From positions 372,001-436,000 of the forward strand of contig BIMP01000001.1 in assembly GCA_007996965.1 (NCBI GenBank): DNA of 64,000 nt. Direction: 5' to 3'. Below the pieces are notes generated by a model, which saw only the letters and a program-made list of their open reading frames with translations, searched no databases and was not told the DNA's origin. Source of the DNA: a cyanobiont of Ornithocercus magnificus (lineage in GTDB: Bacteria; Cyanobacteriota; Cyanobacteriia; PCC-6307; Cyanobiaceae). The position numbers and the translations under genes are program-made. Below, piece after piece: positions 47,373-59,044 of the stretch. Numbering within the stretch: the first letter of the stretch is position 1; each line of letters starts with the position of its first letter.

Positions 47373-47461
47373 GGAGAGGTGGCTGAGCGGTTGAAAGCGG
47401 CTCCCTGCTAAGGAGTTACAGAAGGTAGCTTCTGTCGAGGGTTCGAATCCCTCCCTCTCCG
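47373..47461 (+). tRNA. tRNA-Ser (anticodon GCT)
   Basis: The 89-base class II tRNA has acceptor stem GGAGAGG/CCTCTCC, anticodon loop CTGCTAA giving GCT for AGC/AGU codons, a long variable arm (acagaaggtagcttctgt) and T arm GAGGGTTCGAATCCCTC. CCA is not encoded. A perfect hairpin follows eight bases later. Confidence 0.97.
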
Positions 47462-47468
47462 CTGTGAG

Positions 47469-47510
47469 GTAACTTCTCAGGGAGTCTGCAAAGACTCCCT
47501 GAGAAGTTAC
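47469..47510 (+). terminator. Perfect 18-bp hairpin after tRNA-Ser
   Basis: Bases 47469-47486 pair without mismatch with 47493-47510 around a 6-base loop (tgcaaa). It begins just after the tRNA and probably terminates or protects its transcript. There is no T-run directly after the stem, which is unusual for an intrinsic terminator. Confidence 0.6.
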
Positions 47511-47631
47511 TGTCAAGATAGCTTAGCTTCTTAAAGACCTTTTTACTCTAAATTATGCTCACACTATCATTCTACAGCGAAATCGCGAGTATCCCTAGCC
47601 TCTCTTGAGACCTTTGTGGAGCAAATCTCAT

Positions 47632-50457: not shown

Positions 50458-50949
50458 ATGACTGTTACCCCTGTCGCTGACCCGACTGTTGGCAATCTAG
50501 TTACCCCAGTAAATGGTAGCTACTTTACCAAGGCTTTCCTTAACGCTCTGCCTGCCTACCGGCCAGCATTATCGCCGAATCGACGTGGCTTGGAAATTGG
50601 CATGGCCCATGGCTTTTTCCTATATGGTCCATTCTCAATTTGTGGACCTCTCAGAGCTAGTGAATTTGCTTCTTCCGCAGGCTTGCTGTCATCTATAGGA
50701 CTGGTGTCAATATTAACAGTATGTCTCTCAATCTATGGCACTGCCGGAGATGGGCCTAATGTTCAGCCTCCTGACGCTACGATCGATGACCCTCCAGCTG
50801 ACCTGTTTACTAAACCTGGCTGGGCTGAATTTGCTAGTGGCTTCTGGCTAGGTGGCTGTGGCGGCGCTGCCTTTGCCTGGTTTTTATGTGCTACACCGGT
50901 AGTGGCACCTCTGGTAGAACTTGCTGGCAGTGTTTGGAGCGTTGGCTGA
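50458..50949 (+). CDS. psaL: Photosystem I reaction centre subunit XI (PsaL)
   Basis: PsaL forms the core of the photosystem I trimer interface. The 163-residue product has the N-terminal [44 protein letters not shown] block and two or three membrane helices, ending [10 protein letters not shown]. Sequence and length are standard. It follows psaI on the same strand and ends at a bidirectional hairpin terminator facing psaB. Confidence 0.97.
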
Positions 50950-50999
50950 CCACTGGAGGTTTATTGACTATCTCCCTGCTCTAATGTACTACTAAACAA

Positions 51000-51043
51000 A
51001 AAACAAAAGCTCTATCTGTTCAGCCAGATAGAGCTTTTGTTTT
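51000..51043. terminator. Bidirectional intrinsic terminator between psaL and psaB
   Basis: A perfect stem (51000-51018 with 51025-51043) with loop ttcagc ends in T-runs on both strands (TTTTGTTTTT on the plus strand and its complement). It should terminate psaI-psaL and psaA-psaB transcripts. Confidence 0.9.
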
Positions 51044-51060
51044 TAGAAATTAGGCCTAGA

Positions 51061-53268
51061 TCAACCGAACTTACCAGCTGTGGATGCAATTAGGAAGGCT
51101 GCGTAAGTGAGTATGTAGCCAATAGTGAAGTGGGCAAGCCCAACCACACGAGCCTGGACAATGGATAGTGCCACTGGTTTATCGCGCCAGCCAACCAGGT
51201 TAGCCAGAGGGGTACGCTGATGAGCCCAGACAATAGTTTCAATCAGCTCCTGCCAATAACCCCGCCAGGAAATCAGGAACATAAATCCGGTGGCCCATAC
51301 AAGGTGACCAAACAGAAACATCCATGCCCAAACAGCAAGGTTATTACTGCCAAACGGGTTGTAACCGTTAATCAGCTGAGAGCTGTTAAGCCACAGATAG
51401 TCACGGAACCAGCCCATTAGATACGTGCTAGATTCATTAAATTGAGCTACGTTACCAGACCAAATTGCTAGATGTTTCCAGTGCCAATAGAAGGTAAGCC
51501 AGCCCACAGTGTTTAAGGCCCAGAAAACAGCTAGATAAAATGCATCCCAAGCACTGATATCACAAGTACCACCGCGACCAGGACCATCGCAAGGGAAAGA
51601 ATAGCCAAAATCTTTTTTATCTGGCATCAACTTGGAGCCACGGGCATCTAGAGCACCCTTTACAAGGATTAGGGTAGTTGTATGCAAACCTAGCGCGATA
51701 GCGTGATGAACAAGAAAATCACCAGGTCCAATTGGTAAAAATAGGTCGTTGTTACCATTGATTGCACCTAGCCATCCGTCCATATAGGCAGCATTCGCGT
51801 TGGAAGCTACACCACCAGCATTTGAGAGAAGTACATCAAATCCATAGATTGCTTTTCCAGAGGCAGCTTGAACAAACTCAGCAAAGACAGGCTCAACCAG
51901 GATTTGCTTCTCGGGGGTGCCAAAGGCAACTACCACATCGTTGTGGACATAGAGGCCAAGTGTATGAAAGCCGAGAAAGAGCGAAACCCAGCTTAAGTGA
52001 CTAATGATCGCTTCTTTGTGCTCAAGCATTCGCGCTAGCACATTATCCTTATTAGCTTCGGGGTCGTAATCACGGATGAAGAAGATTGCACCATGCGCGA
52101 ATGCACCACACATCAAGAAGATAGCTATATACTGATGGTGTGTGTAGAGAGCAGCCTGAGTAGTATATGCTTTAGCAATAAAGGCGTAAGATGGCATCGC
52201 ATACATATGCTGGGCCACCAAACTGGTAATAACTCCTAAGCTAGCAAGTGCTAGGCCTAGCTGGAAGTGTAGTGAATTGTTTATAGTATCATAAAGACCT
52301 TTATGACCAGCACCTAAATCACCAGGAGTACCCTTAGGAGGATTATGGGCTTCGAGGATTTCGCGAATGGAGTGACCGATACCAAAGTTTGTGCGGTACA
52401 TATGACCAGCAATCACAAATATGACACCGATAGCCAAGTGGTGATGTGCGATGTCTGTTAGCCAGAGTGCCTCAGTCTGTGGGTGAAATCCTCCTAGGAA
52501 AGTTAGAATCGCTGTACCAGAGCCTTCAGCAGTGCCAAATACCTGACTTAGGTTGTCGGGGTTCTGAGCGTATACACCCCAATTGCCAGTGAAGAAAGGC
52601 CCTAATCCAGCAGGGTGCGGCATCACGTTCAGAAAATTGCCCCAGCCAACGTGCTGACCACGAGACTCAGGGATAGCTACGTGAACTAGGTGGCCTGTCC
52701 ATGCGATTGAGCTGAAGCCAAACAGGACAGCAAGGTGGTGATTCAGACGCGATTCGGCGTTCTTGAACCAAGCAAGAGATGGACGGAATCTAGGTTGTAG
52801 GTGAAGCCAGCCGGCAAACAGAGCCCAGACTGACAAGATCATCATAAAGATGGAACCCTGATATAGCTCGGCATTGGTGTGCATGCCAATCGTGTACCAC
52901 CAATGGTACAGACCAGAGTAAGCAATGTTTACAGGGGAAGAAGCACCTGCCTGAGTGAAAGCGCGAGTAGCACCTTCACCAAAGTGAGGGTCCCAAATTG
53001 CGTGTGCAATAGGGCTTATGTGTAGTGGGTCAGCAACCCACTGCTCAAAGTTACCTTGCCAGGCGATGTGGAACAGGTTGCCCGAAACCCAGAGGCCAAT
53101 AATTGCGAGATGCCCGAAATGAGTGGAGAAAAGCTTTTGGTATAGCTTTTCCTCAGTCATTCCATCATGGCTCTCGAAATCGTGAGCCGTGGCGATCCCG
53201 TACCAGATACGACGGGTTGTCGGGTCCTGAGCCAGACCCTGGCTAAACGAAGGAAATTTCGTTGCCAT
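51061..53268 (-). CDS. psaB: Photosystem I P700 chlorophyll a apoprotein A2
   Basis: PsaB binds half of P700, the electron-transfer chlorophylls and part of cluster FX. The 735-residue product starts [35 protein letters not shown] and has the FX cysteine loop [18 protein letters not shown] and eleven hydrophobic helices. Length is normal. It lies 27 bases after psaA and is almost certainly cotranscribed with it. Confidence 0.99.
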
Positions 53269-53295: not shown

Positions 53296-55599
53296 TCAAC
53301 CGACCACAAGAATGTGGGCGTGGAAGAAAGCCCAGGTGGTCGCAATTCCACCTAGAAGATAGTGGGCGACACCAGCGGCACGGCCTTGTGTAATGGACAA
53401 AGCACGAGGCTGAATAGTGGGCGCTACTTTAAGTTTATTATGAGCCCAAACAATTGACTCGATTAGCTCTTGCCAATAACCACGGCCGCTAAACAGGAAC
53501 ATTAGGCTAAAGGCCCAGATAAAGTGGGCACCAAGGAACATAATTCCGTAAGCGCTAGTGGCAGAGCCATAGCTATTGATAACCTGCACAGCTTGAGCCC
53601 ACAAGAAATCACGCAACCAGCCATTAATTGTGATAGCACTACTAGCAAAATTGCCGTTAGTGATGTGGGCAATACTGCCATCAGAGCTCATAGAGCCCCA
53701 GACATCGCTCTGCATCTTCCAACTAAAGTGGAAGATCACAATCGATAGAGAATTATACATCCAGAATAAGCCTAAGAAAACATGATCCCAGGCTGATACT
53801 TGACAAGTACCACCACGGCCAGGGCCGTCGCAAGGAAAACGGAATCCTAGGTTGGCCTTATCGGGTACTAGGCGTGAGCTTCGGGCATAGAGTACACCCT
53901 TTAATAAGATTAGGACTGTTACGTGAATTGTGAAGGCATGGATATGGTGGACCATGAAGTCGGCGGTGCCGAGAGGAATCCCCATCGAAGCCACCTTGCC
54001 ACCAACGGCCACGGCTGTGCCATCGAAAACCTGGCTTACCCCAGCTAGCGCATTTGGAGCAGTGCTACCAGCTGCAGACGCATGAAGACCCTGAATCCAT
54101 TGGGCAAAGATAGGCTTTAGCTGAATCGCTGAGTCACTGAACATGTCCTGGGGACGGCCCAGAGCACGCATAGTGTCATTGTGAATATAGAGGCCGAAGC
54201 TATGGAAGCCTAACCAGATGCAAACCCAGTTAAGATGACTAATGATCGCATCACGAGCTTTCAACACGCGATCAAGGACATTGTCAATGTGCTTAGCAGG
54301 ATCATAGTCCCGAATCATGGCAATGGCACCATGAGCAGCAGCGCCAACTATAAAGAATCCACCTATCCACATGTGATGAGTGAATAACCCAATCTGAGTT
54401 GGGTAGTCAGTGGCAATGTATGCGTAAGGGGGCATTGCGTACATGTGCTGGGCCACAATGATGCTCAGGGATCCAAGCATCGCCAAGTTGACTGCTAACT
54501 GAGCATGCCAGGAGTTAATCATAAACTCGTAGAGGCCATCATGACCACGGCTGGCTGGGAAAAGCAAAGGATCACCCTTTTGTCCTTCAAGGATTTCTTT
54601 GATCGAGTGACCAATTCCCCAGTTAGTCCGGTACATATGACCGGCTACAATGAATAGTACCGCAATTGCTAGATGGTGATGAGCAATGTCACTCATCCAA
54701 AGACTGCCAGTAACGGGATTTAAACCGCCTTTAAAGGTAAGGAAGTCACTATAAGCTGCCCAGTTGCCGTTGAAAAAGGCAGTGATACCTGCACTGAAAC
54801 CCGGGAACAGTTGAGCTATCAGATCCTGACTAAAAAACTCATGCGGCAGAGGTATATCTGAAACTGTGGCTATGGTCTTGCCATCGAGCACCAATGGTTC
54901 ACCAGCATCGATAGCATCCATCAGAGTTGTAGTGGGCAGAGACACATGTAGCAGGTGTCCTGTCCAAGAGAGTGAGCCGAGTCCTAGCAATCCTGCTAGA
55001 TGATGGTTAAGCATCGACTCAACGTTTTGGAACCACTCAAGCTTCGGTGCAGCTCGGTGGTAATGGAATACGCCGGCGTTGAGCATTAGGCCAGCCATCA
55101 CCAGAGCACCGATGGCTAGAGACATTAGCTGGGTCTCACTGGTGATGCCCCAGGCGCGCCATACATGGAACAAGCCTGAGGTGATCTGGATTCCATGGAA
55201 GCCAGCACCAACGTCACCATTAAGAATCTCCTGGCCAAAGATTGGCCAGACTACCTGCGCACTGGGCTTAACATGTGTAGGGTCAACAAGCCAGCCAGAG
55301 TAGTTAGAAAAGCGGGCGCCATGGAAGAAAGCACCGCTTAACCAGATGAAAATGACGGCTAGGTGGCCGAAATGAGCACTGAAGATCTTGCGAGAGACCT
55401 CTTGCAGATCGTTTGTGTGGCTGTCGAAATCATGAGCGTTGGCGTGGAGGTTCCAGACCCAAGTTGTGGTCTTAGGACCCTTTGCGAGAGATCGGTCGAA
55501 GTGCCCGGGCTTGCCGAACGTTTCGAAGGTCGCCGGCTTGTTGACCTTCTCGACCTGGCTCTTCGCGTTGGTCCCACGCTCTGGTGGGCTGATGGTCAT
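53296..55599 (-). CDS. psaA: Photosystem I P700 chlorophyll a apoprotein A1
   Basis: PsaA pairs with PsaB to carry P700 and cluster FX. The 767-residue product starts [22 protein letters not shown], has the FX loop [19 protein letters not shown], and ends [12 protein letters not shown] chose the ATG at 55599; the frame is open 14 codons further. Expression is probably controlled by the structured leader upstream (55736-55945). Confidence 0.99.
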
Positions 55600-55735
55600 C
55601 GAGTCGTTTCTCGAGGGACGGGATCGGAGATGGAGGACCACCCCTTTATTGGAGTGGGCTTTGCATGGCCCCAGCTATAGAGACATCTCACTGAAATAGA
55701 GTGTCTAAACCTGCCGGGGACTGCGTCGATTTTGG

Positions 55736-55945
55736 CGAAGTCGAGACTTCGCGACCGACGTCAGAGCAAAGGCTCCTAAGGGGAGCCGCTTGTGAAGATG
55801 CTAAACGTGGAGCAACCATCTCTTAACGTACGAGTTACAAAGATTCAATCCACTTAAGTCCGCCTCGCAGCTAGGCCCTAACTAAAAGACTTGGCAAACC
55901 GCTAAGCAGGAGGGCAAAACCCTGCCCTGTTAATCTGCGCGGACT
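55736..55945 (-). promoter_or_regulatory. Structured psaA leader, candidate psaA RNA motif
   Basis: Upstream of psaA on the same strand lie three stem-loops: 55736-55751 (GCGAAGT-type stem, YNMG-like CUCG loop when read on the minus strand), 55765-55790 (GGCTCC/GGAGCC plus AGC/GCT around a 3-base bulge) and 55857-55945 (outer AGTCCGC/GCGGACT plus GCAG/CTGC with a 3-base bulge, enclosing an inner AGGGCA/TGCCCT hairpin). A cyanobacterial psaA RNA motif with about three hairpins in the psaAB 5' region has been described; I cannot align to it here. It probably regulates psaAB. Confidence 0.5.
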
Positions 55946-56045: not shown

Positions 56046-57110
56046 ATGACGTTGCAGCTAGAGGCTGGTTCTGCACCTGTAGAGATAGCTCAAGTCTGGC
56101 GCCCAATTATATCCTTTTGCTTCATGCTGTTGGCAGTAGCTATGTTGTTAGTAATACCTACAACAGCGAAAGCTTTCCCTCTTTATACAAACAACATTAA
56201 AGAACCTGGGCGTCTAGCTAGAACTAACGGGGTGCTAACAATGTCGGGTCAGCTGCAAGAAGTTCCGCCGCCTCAGGCAATTCAGCAGCTGCGGCTACGG
56301 CTCAGTGAGTATCAGCCACGATTGACTTTGCTAGCTCCCCAAGATGGTAGTATTTTACCTATGGGACCCTGGCGTTTGAGGCTATGCATTGAAGGCTGGC
56401 CCGTATATGAAGATCCGGAGTTAGGAATTGGTGCTCATGTAGTACTGCAAGTAGATAACAACGCACCAATCCGGTTAGCTAGGGCCGAGAATGGATTACT
56501 GGACGAACTAATTTTACCCTTAAGGCCGGGCAGTCACAGAATTGCAGCTTATGCAGCTTACCCTTGGGGCGAAGCAGTTAAGGGATCTAATGCTGGTGTG
56601 CAGTGGCGTTTGCATGTACTACAACCATTAGAGGGAACCCAGCCAGAAGAATATGCTCCTTGGCTGTCTGCGGTAAGCCCTAATGAGATGACAAGCTATG
56701 GTCCCCTGCTACTCGACTGGATCCTCTGGAACGCTCCAATACAGAACCTGCATGAGGGTGATGATCGTTGGAGACTGCGGGCCTCGATCGGCAAGGAGAC
56801 AGTAGTGCTTAACCGTCAGGTGCCTCTCTGGCTTCAAGGCATACCGCCTGAAACGACGGCAGTACAGATTGAGCTGCTTGATGCATTGGGGACGCCGATC
56901 GCACCAGTTTTCAACAACTGGCTTTTACCTCTACCGCCGAGAAGTGCTGAAGAGCCTATCTGGTTACAACATCTAGATGAAGCCTCGATTGAGCGATTGC
57001 TCGGGGTAGTGCCTCCAGAAAATCGCCCTAGCAAGGCGAACAGTAATACTAATTTGAAGTCGGTGGTTACAGATCAGGAGCCAGACAGCTCGCAGGACAG
57101 TACATCTTAG
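56046..57110 (+). CDS. Hypothetical secreted or membrane-anchored protein
   Basis: The 354-residue product has an N-terminal hydrophobic segment (PIISFCFMLLAVAMLLVIP) followed by TTAKA-F, a good signal peptidase site, so it is probably exported to the periplasm or thylakoid lumen. The mature part is rich in Leu and Pro with beta-strand-like stretches such as RLTLLAPQDGSILPMGPWRLRLCIEGWPVYEDPELGIGAHV, and has a polar Ser/Asn tail. I do not recognise the family. I use the ATG at 56046; a TTG at 56028 is possible. It lies between psaA (divergent) and cobJ (same strand, 107 bases). Confidence 0.7.
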   Translation: MTLQLEAGSAPVEIAQVWRPIISFCFMLLAVAMLLVIPTTAKAFPLYTNNIKEPGRLARTNGVLTMSGQLQEVPPPQAIQQLRLRLSEYQPRLTLLAPQDGSILPMGPWRLRLCIEGWPVYEDPELGIGAHVVLQVDNNAPIRLARAENGLLDELILPLRPGSHRIAAYAAYPWGEAVKGSNAGVQWRLHVLQPLEGTQPEEYAPWLSAVSPNEMTSYGPLLLDWILWNAPIQNLHEGDDRWRLRASIGKETVVLNRQVPLWLQGIPPETTAVQIELLDALGTPIAPVFNNWLLPLPPRSAEEPIWLQHLDEASIERLLGVVPPENRPSKANSNTNLKSVVTDQEPDSSQDSTS

Positions 57111-57217
57111 ATCTATCACTGTTAAGGAGTTACTAAGCTGTAATATTAAGGAAGTCATAGTGAGGTCACCATCTTAAGCAGTATTGAATTATTTTGGGCC
57201 TGCCCCCAAATATATTG

Positions 57218-59044
57218 ATGTTGCGGCTAGCTCTAGGCCTTTCAGCATCATCATGGCCATTGCTATTAAGACTAAAAAGAAATGGTCACGTTGATCAGTT
57301 AGCCCTCACGCCTGCAGCAGCTGAAACTCTGACAGCTCACATTGGTTCACTTGCGCAGGAAACATTACTGATAGCCCGTGGTGCCGAGGTTTTCAAACAG
57401 CACTGGCAAAAAGATGGAATATTCATAGTAGTAGGGGCAATAGGTGCAGTGACCCGACTAATTGCACCAATGGTGACAGACAAGGAATGTGATCCAGCAG
57501 TGCTAGTAGTTGATGCACGGGGTGATGTGGTAATTCCTTTATTAGGAGGGCACTGGGCTGGTGCTGAGCACCTGGCATTGGAGTTGGCGGCGGAACTCGG
57601 TGGTCAAGCAGGAATAACAGGAGACTGTACTGTGTCAGCAAAAACCAGTTGGGACTGCTTTGGCAAGCTTTGGGGCTGGCGTCGATCTGGTAAAGGCAAC
57701 TGCTGGAATGCTTTGATGCGCCGCCAGGCTACTGCAAGATTACCGGTAGTTCAGCAGGAAAGTGGCAGCAACCTGTGGCAAGCGGCAGTAAACTTCCAGA
57801 AGCTTCAGTGTAATAGAGCAACAACACCAGACTTACTGATCGGGCCAGGATTAAATGCGCCATGTTGCTGGCATCCCGCAACTCTATGGTTAGGTATTGG
57901 TTGTGAGCGGAATACTAGTTTCTCACTACTAAAACGAGCAGTTTCTGAAGCCCTAGAAGTAGGTCAGCTGGCAATAGAAGCAGTAGCAGGATTGGCCAGC
58001 ATTGACCTGAAGGCTAACGAGCCAGGGCTTTTAGAATTGGTACAGGCGAATGGTTGGTTCCTACGCCTCTATAAGGCCTCCGAGTTAGCTACTGTGGATG
58101 TCCCAACCCCATCGGCGTCAGTCGCATTAAAGATAGGAACCCCTTCAGTTGCTGAAGCAGCTGCCCTAAGAGCAGCAGGCACAGGGGCAAACCTTAAATT
58201 GACTAAGAGAATTCAGCGAGCACAGGATGGTGAACATGGAACTGCAACCATAGCTGTTGCTTCTGCTGTACGCGCTTTTGCCCCAGAACGTGGCGAGCTA
58301 CACCTAGTTAGCAGCGGGCCAGGTGATCAAGCTCTACTCACACATGATGCCCGTGCTGCTCTAATACGTTGCCCGGTCTGGTTTGGTTATAGCTTTTACC
58401 TAGATTTACTTGAGCCTCTGCGCCGTCAAGACCAAGTACGCTGTGACAGTAACCTCACGCAAGAGATAGATCGTTGTCAGCAGGCCATTGACCTTGCTAC
58501 CGAAGGGGTACGCGTAGCCCTGGTTTCCTCAGGCGACAGTGGTATCTACGGTATGGCGGGTCTTGCACTAGACCTCTGGTTACGGCAGCCTAGTCAAGAG
58601 CGACCAAGCTTTCAGGTACACCCCGGCGTCTCAGCATTGCAGCTTGCTGCTGCTCGGGTTGGGGCTCCGCTAATGCATGATTTCTGCACGGTCAGTCTCA
58701 GCGATAGACTTACCCCATGGGATGTAATTGAATCTCGCGTACGTGCAGCTGCCGAGGGTGATTTTGTAGTAGCATTCTATAATCCCCGTTCCCGTGACCG
58801 CAATTGGCAATTATCTAGGGCTATTAATCTGTTGTTAGAGCATCGGCCCATGTCTACACCTGCCGTAATAGCTCGCCAGCTAGGACGTCAAGGAGAAAAA
58901 ATAAGTTTGCACCGACTTAGCGATATTCCCATCGAGGATGTTGATATGTTTAGCCTTGTCCTTGTGGGCAACAGTACTAGCCAGATTCATGGCAATTGGA
59001 TGCTGACTCCCCGAGGCTACTCAAGTAGAGGCAAGCTTGCTTGA
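57218..59044 (+). CDS. cobJ: CbiG-CobJ fusion (precorrin-3B C17-methyltransferase)
   Basis: The 608-residue product joins two cobalamin pathway enzymes. The N-terminal half (about 1-340) is CbiG-like, with IFIVVGAIGAVTRLIAPMVTDKECDPAVLVVDARGDVVIPLLGGHWAGAE and a C-terminal CbiG domain LWLGIGCERNTSFSLLKRAVSEAL. The C-terminal part (about 370-608) is CobJ/CbiH with GPGDQALLTHDAR, VALVSSGDSGIYGMAGLALD, FQVHPGVSALQLAAARVGAPLMHDFCTVSLSDRLTPW and SFDFVVAFYNPRSR-like SAM-binding blocks. It uses the ATG at 57218; a TTG lies upstream. Such fusions are known in cyanobacteria. Confidence 0.9.
   Translation: MLRLALGLSASSWPLLLRLKRNGHVDQLALTPAAAETLTAHIGSLAQETLLIARGAEVFKQHWQKDGIFIVVGAIGAVTRLIAPMVTDKECDPAVLVVDARGDVVIPLLGGHWAGAEHLALELAAELGGQAGITGDCTVSAKTSWDCFGKLWGWRRSGKGNCWNALMRRQATARLPVVQQESGSNLWQAAVNFQKLQCNRATTPDLLIGPGLNAPCCWHPATLWLGIGCERNTSFSLLKRAVSEALEVGQLAIEAVAGLASIDLKANEPGLLELVQANGWFLRLYKASELATVDVPTPSASVALKIGTPSVAEAAALRAAGTGANLKLTKRIQRAQDGEHGTATIAVASAVRAFAPERGELHLVSSGPGDQALLTHDARAALIRCPVWFGYSFYLDLLEPLRRQDQVRCDSNLTQEIDRCQQAIDLATEGVRVALVSSGDSGIYGMAGLALDLWLRQPSQERPSFQVHPGVSALQLAAARVGAPLMHDFCTVSLSDRLTPWDVIESRVRAAAEGDFVVAFYNPRSRDRNWQLSRAINLLLEHRPMSTPAVIARQLGRQGEKISLHRLSDIPIEDVDMFSLVLVGNSTSQIHGNWMLTPRGYSSRGKLA

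Follow-up and report, generated by a model that had tools for sequence, protein, structure and literature searches.

The psaA start codon lies at position 55599 on the minus strand of the window (the whole stretch of DNA that was analysed, 64,000 nucleotides), with psaA and psaB reading away from the intergenic region. A spacer of 446 bases separates it from the divergent gene, which starts at 56046 on the plus strand. The product of this gene (56046-57110, plus strand) had no Pfam match; orthologues adjoin psaA in nearly all relatives examined, and the divergent arrangement is therefore old. Farther on, at 57194-59044 (plus strand), one reading frame encodes both the N- and the C-terminal domain of CbiG, fused to a tetrapyrrole methylase domain of the CobJ type. 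Among short stretches of the window, those that folded most strongly, with z of about -5 to -7 on both strands, were 47424-47565, directly after a tRNA-Ser, and 50949-51090, between the end of psaB and the gene that finishes at 50949; both are probably terminators.

A preliminary description of this DNA had listed three inverted repeats upstream of psaA, and these are present at 55735-55752, 55771-55787 and 55857-55945 (hairpins 1, 2 and 3 below), at the distances of about 135-345 bases from the psaA ATG that it had given. Its remark that the outer stem of hairpin 3 stands in otherwise AT-rich DNA was mistaken, because the intergenic region is 51.3% GC (window, 49.7%; hairpin 3, 56.2%). The features of the spacer are as follows.

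55597-55599, minus strand: psaA start codon ATG, aligned with the starts of more than 70 relatives.
55596-55804, minus strand: psaA RNA (RF01752), the structured leader ending on the psaA start codon; matched by the Rfam model and by an independent model.
55605-55632, minus strand: hairpin around the ribosome-binding site, UCUC(C)GA (55624-55630) with UCGAGA (55609-55614), from comparison with 78 relatives.
55638-55657, minus strand: window-specific hairpin CCACUCC/GGGGUGG in the minimum-energy fold, in place of the third conserved hairpin.
55669-55719, minus strand: second conserved hairpin (helix 4, also in the independent model), outer stem CCCCGGC (55713-55719) with GCUGGGG (55669-55675).
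55721-55764, minus strand: first conserved hairpin (helix 3), stem CUGaCGUCG (55756-55764) with CGACGCAG (55721-55728).
55735-55752, minus strand: hairpin 1, the inverted repeat GCGAAGTC/GACTTCGC, tip of the first conserved hairpin.
55771-55787, minus strand: hairpin 2, GGCUCC/GGAGCC, at the 5' end of the leader, from the fold and the inverted repeat.
55798-55803, minus strand: predicted -10 box TAGCAT, from its spacing to the upstream block.
55834-55851, plus strand: HLR1-like element GTTACAAA-GA-TTCAATCC, a highly conserved promoter block, from comparison with relatives and the HLR1 definition (PMC13421787).
55857-55945, plus strand: hairpin 3, separate from the leader and folding better on this strand, from z by strand and a comparison of 77 sequences.
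55862-55876, no strand: imperfect palindrome at the place of the relatives' CCWGT-N4-ACWGG palindrome.

The Rfam model RF01752, which represents the psaA RNA motif of Weinberg et al. 2010 (PMC2864571), gave a full-length match on the minus strand at 55596-55804, with its 3' end on the psaA ATG. The score of 51.7 bits was barely above the curated gathering score of 50 bits. Since this single score was marginal, we built an independent covariance model, for which 29 relatives were aligned without the window and a consensus structure was predicted. It matched 55597-55800 on the minus strand with 53.8 bits (E 3e-17); the second-best match within the 64 kb window reached only 9.4 bits, and there were no others. 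Among the genuine leaders recovered by this model from the 42 sources searched, that of the window scored lowest, and it is therefore a diverged member. The RF01752 model matched in 92 of the 121 genomes of the same family, and the relatives' matches end at the psaA start where they were compared. No second copy was found in the organism's own genome or in its genus, which consists of one genome. When the whole upstream region was searched against 60 relatives, sequence similarity was confined to the last ~46 bases before psaA, the one exception being a stray match of 31 bases outside the family.

In the window, the complete leader has a fold z of -4.25. Across 44 aligned matches, 94.2% of the cells pair, and double changes occur in 22 of the 38 pairs, amounting to 157 cells compared with 42.9 in shuffles (0/500 shuffles reach 157). 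Sliding the partners by 1-3 bases abolished the pairing and covariation signal. The 44-match alignment includes two weak stray matches, which leave the conclusion unaffected: the 29-sequence alignment without them has double changes in 18 of 38 pairs. The strongest helices form three hairpins, as in the published description (PMC2864571). The leader belongs to the psaA RNA family, which heads the photosystem I (psaAB) message in small cyanobacteria, and its structure has been kept by compensatory change. Chance does not account for hairpins 1 and 2, since they lie inside a leader with this fold and with family-wide covariation. Among the outcomes that the preliminary description had named as fatal to its proposal were a missing covariance-model match and stems without compensatory changes in relatives; the proposal survived both because the psaA RNA is found on the psaA strand and its stems do covary. 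We rejected one further pairing, GCGG/CCGU (helix 1), which would join the 5' end to the loop of the ribosome-site hairpin: relatives with CCCAU at that place cannot form it, and its sole double changes appear to stem from the two weak stray matches of the 44-match alignment.

The psaA RNA motif is thus present at the locus as had been suggested, but its borders are 55596-55804 instead of 55736-55945. Nor are the three hairpins listed earlier the three conserved hairpins of the family: hairpin 1 caps the first of these, hairpin 2 is a stem formed locally at the 5' end, and hairpin 3 falls outside. What had been missed is the remainder of the leader downstream, as far as the hairpin around the ribosome-binding site. 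In the first conserved hairpin, five base pairs of the window have both partners changed from the consensus yet remain paired, by our own reading of the Rfam alignment. The second, absent from the preliminary list, shows double changes among relatives in all 7 pairs. Both are present, with compensatory changes, whereas the third is unrecognisable and CCACUCC/GGGGUGG stands in its place. Compared with the family description, the leader is alike in its location 5' of psaAB, its strand, its end point on the start codon, its first and second hairpins and its conserved 3' end. Ending on the ATG at 55599 on the same strand, it occupies the position of a potential 5' UTR of psaAB. It differs in its replaced third hairpin, in a weaker long-range helix and in the lack of UNCG loops from its hairpins (the loop of hairpin 1 is CUCG). 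The hairpins of psaA RNAs carry UNCG loops often, not always (PMC2864571), and because the source says "often", this absence is no bar to membership. The original description gave no tested function (PMC2864571), and no later functional test was found in the literature searched.

The sequence CCUCGA/UCGAGG just before the psaA ATG is nearly invariant among 78 relatives, and in the window alone the closing C-G pair of the ribosome-site hairpin is replaced by U-A. Such a replacement is what selection for pairing would give, although as a single event it is only suggestive. The hairpin otherwise lacks covariation evidence because it is nearly invariant in all the other genomes. It may limit translation. 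At the other end of the leader, the segments forming hairpin 2 are two that Rfam pairs with partners farther downstream, so that hairpin 2 might be one state of a switch in which the 5' segments pair either locally or with the distant partners. The local hairpin and the long-range helices can indeed be formed from the same bases in nearly all relatives. However, covariation exceeds that of shuffles only in the long-range b:b' helix (11 cells, 0/300 shuffles); the local hairpin 2 shows no such excess (2 cells, 186/300 shuffles), the long-range a:a' helix has 0 cells, and two of the seven b:b' pairs are mismatched in the window. We consider a switch improbable and, since the covariation is restricted to b:b', claim none.

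Upstream of the leader, nearly all relatives share the block GgaTtGAACcTTTGTaACT, located 37-38 bases before TATGCT or TATACT. Its counterpart in the window is GGATTGAATCTTTGTAACT, with TAGCAT at the same spacing; this distance was constant in the six genomes measured, the window included, and the -10 box was aligned in the rest. Reverse-complemented, the block contains GTTACAAA, one canonical half-site of HLR1. HLR1 is the RpaB site, KTTACAWW-N2-KTTACAWW, and activates ~45-66 bases upstream of the start (PMC13421787). Relative to the predicted start, the GTTACAAA half-site of the window would occupy roughly -43 to -60, near this activating range (-45 to -66). The second half-site, TTCAATCC, does not fit KTTACAWW, which is why we call the element only HLR1-like. 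The psaA transcript is predicted from these signals to start near 55791 on the minus strand, ~7 bases after the -10 box. As the promoter block lies between the leader and hairpin 3, the predicted start falls between hairpins 2 and 3.

In many relatives (e.g. L002, L027, L067, L110), a palindrome CCWGT-N4-ACWGG occurs upstream of the psaA HLR1-like block, ~28 bases upstream of TTTGTWAC. In L059 and L113-L116 it is shifted by ~10 bp, one helical turn, nearer to the block, as would be expected for a protein operator. The palindrome was rejected as an RNA hairpin because the W positions of one arm vary without regard to those of the other, which is the pattern of a protein site. The window retains no more of it than GCCT/AGGC. 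A separate pattern was seen in L058, L059, L113-L116 and several genomes without an RF01752 match: the promoter block is kept, as is the end of the leader at the ribosome site, and the psaA RNA between them is largely changed or lost.

Hairpin 3 consists of the outer arms AGTCCGC and GCGGACT (55857-55863 with 55939-55945) and an inner GCAG/CTGC. It is outside both model matches, which end at 55800-55804, and the conserved promoter block separates it from the leader. Its near edge is 66 bases upstream of the predicted start, beyond the HLR1-like element, and its left arm overlaps the position of the relatives' palindrome. Because the predicted start lies downstream of it, hairpin 3 is predicted to be absent from the psaA message. 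Its fold z is -2.96 on the plus strand and -1.0 to -1.8 on the minus strand; the plus strand folds better because a G-U pair in the stem CUUGGC/GCUAAG becomes A-C on the other strand. In the fold statistics, which cover the 64 kb window, the plus-strand value was equalled or bettered by 41 of 2720 stretches of the same length. Of the shuffled intergenic regions, 3.7% contain a bulged 7+4 bp inverted repeat with this span, and 31 comparable 7+4 bp repeats were counted in the 64 kb window versus 6-12 in shuffled windows. Hairpin 3 is only marginally unusual. No consistent structure was found on either strand in the 94 bases upstream of the block among 77 sequences including the window (mean z -0.47 and -0.24), while the leader averaged -3.55 in the same comparison. 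Tried as a tRNA or as another Rfam family, hairpin 3 gave no match, nor was a promoter-like site found there or a second copy elsewhere in the organism's own genome.

The preferred reading, to which we assign a probability of about 0.82, is a diverged psaA RNA leader on the minus strand, from ~55791 to the ATG at 55599, together with a separate and most likely incidental hairpin 3 in the spacer. Transcription of psaAB would begin near 55791, driven by a promoter that combines an HLR1-like activator site (55834-55851) with a -10 box (55803-55798), and the leader would act in cis on psaAB expression. The most likely mode of action, with roughly even odds, is control of ribosome access via the hairpin covering the ribosome-binding site; alternatively, the leader may protect the psaAB message from decay or expose it. 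Hairpin 3 would then lie farther upstream than this promoter, in the spacer that psaA and the divergent gene at 56046 have in common. Weighing against this reading are the Rfam score barely over the cut-off, the unrecognisable third hairpin, the lack of UNCG loops, and a plus-strand fold of hairpin 3 that is somewhat better than those of shuffles.

Hairpin 3 had been put forward as a possible divergent or additional structure of the leader, and the repeat does exist, but outside the psaA RNA match and beyond the predicted promoter. For it to form one leader with hairpins 1 and 2, a distal psaA promoter would have to yield a long message. Takahashi et al. 2010 report dual psaAB promoters with several HLR1 sites for Synechocystis, and the minus-strand fold of hairpin 3 is stable at -36.9 kcal/mol. 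However, this fold is weak relative to shuffles (z only -1.0 to -1.8), both models stop at 55800-55804, relatives have no structure at the position, and no sigma-70-like promoter was found in the region; such a long leader is quite unlikely. The orientation, which had been left unsettled, is clear for the psaA RNA, which is on the psaA (minus) strand, but hairpin 3 folds better on the plus strand (z -2.96 against -1.80). This preference could point to a plus-strand RNA, either as the leader of the gene at 56046 or as a small RNA of the lineage. Yet no promoter-like site was found on the plus strand, the hairpin has no Rfam family and no conserved counterpart in relatives, it is not unusual among stretches of its size, and it ends 100 bases before the divergent ATG. 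We regard a plus-strand RNA as unlikely, and it is decidedly improbable that hairpin 3 is a lineage-specific plus-strand regulatory RNA, with the spacer making two structured RNAs, one per direction. Most probably, the inverted repeat of hairpin 3 is incidental, lies in regulatory DNA and does not belong to the leader.

The locus is an ordinary, diverged member of an already described RNA family plus one probably incidental structure. Our analysis redraws the borders of the psaA leader for this lineage and sets the leader apart from its promoter. As a diverged member, the leader provides stem changes on both sides, which strengthen the case for the first hairpin and, to a lesser degree, for the ribosome-site hairpin. 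Lineages in which the middle of the psaA RNA is changed or lost could help to find the functional core, and the very conserved promoter-plus-leader unit would be suited to direct reporter tests.
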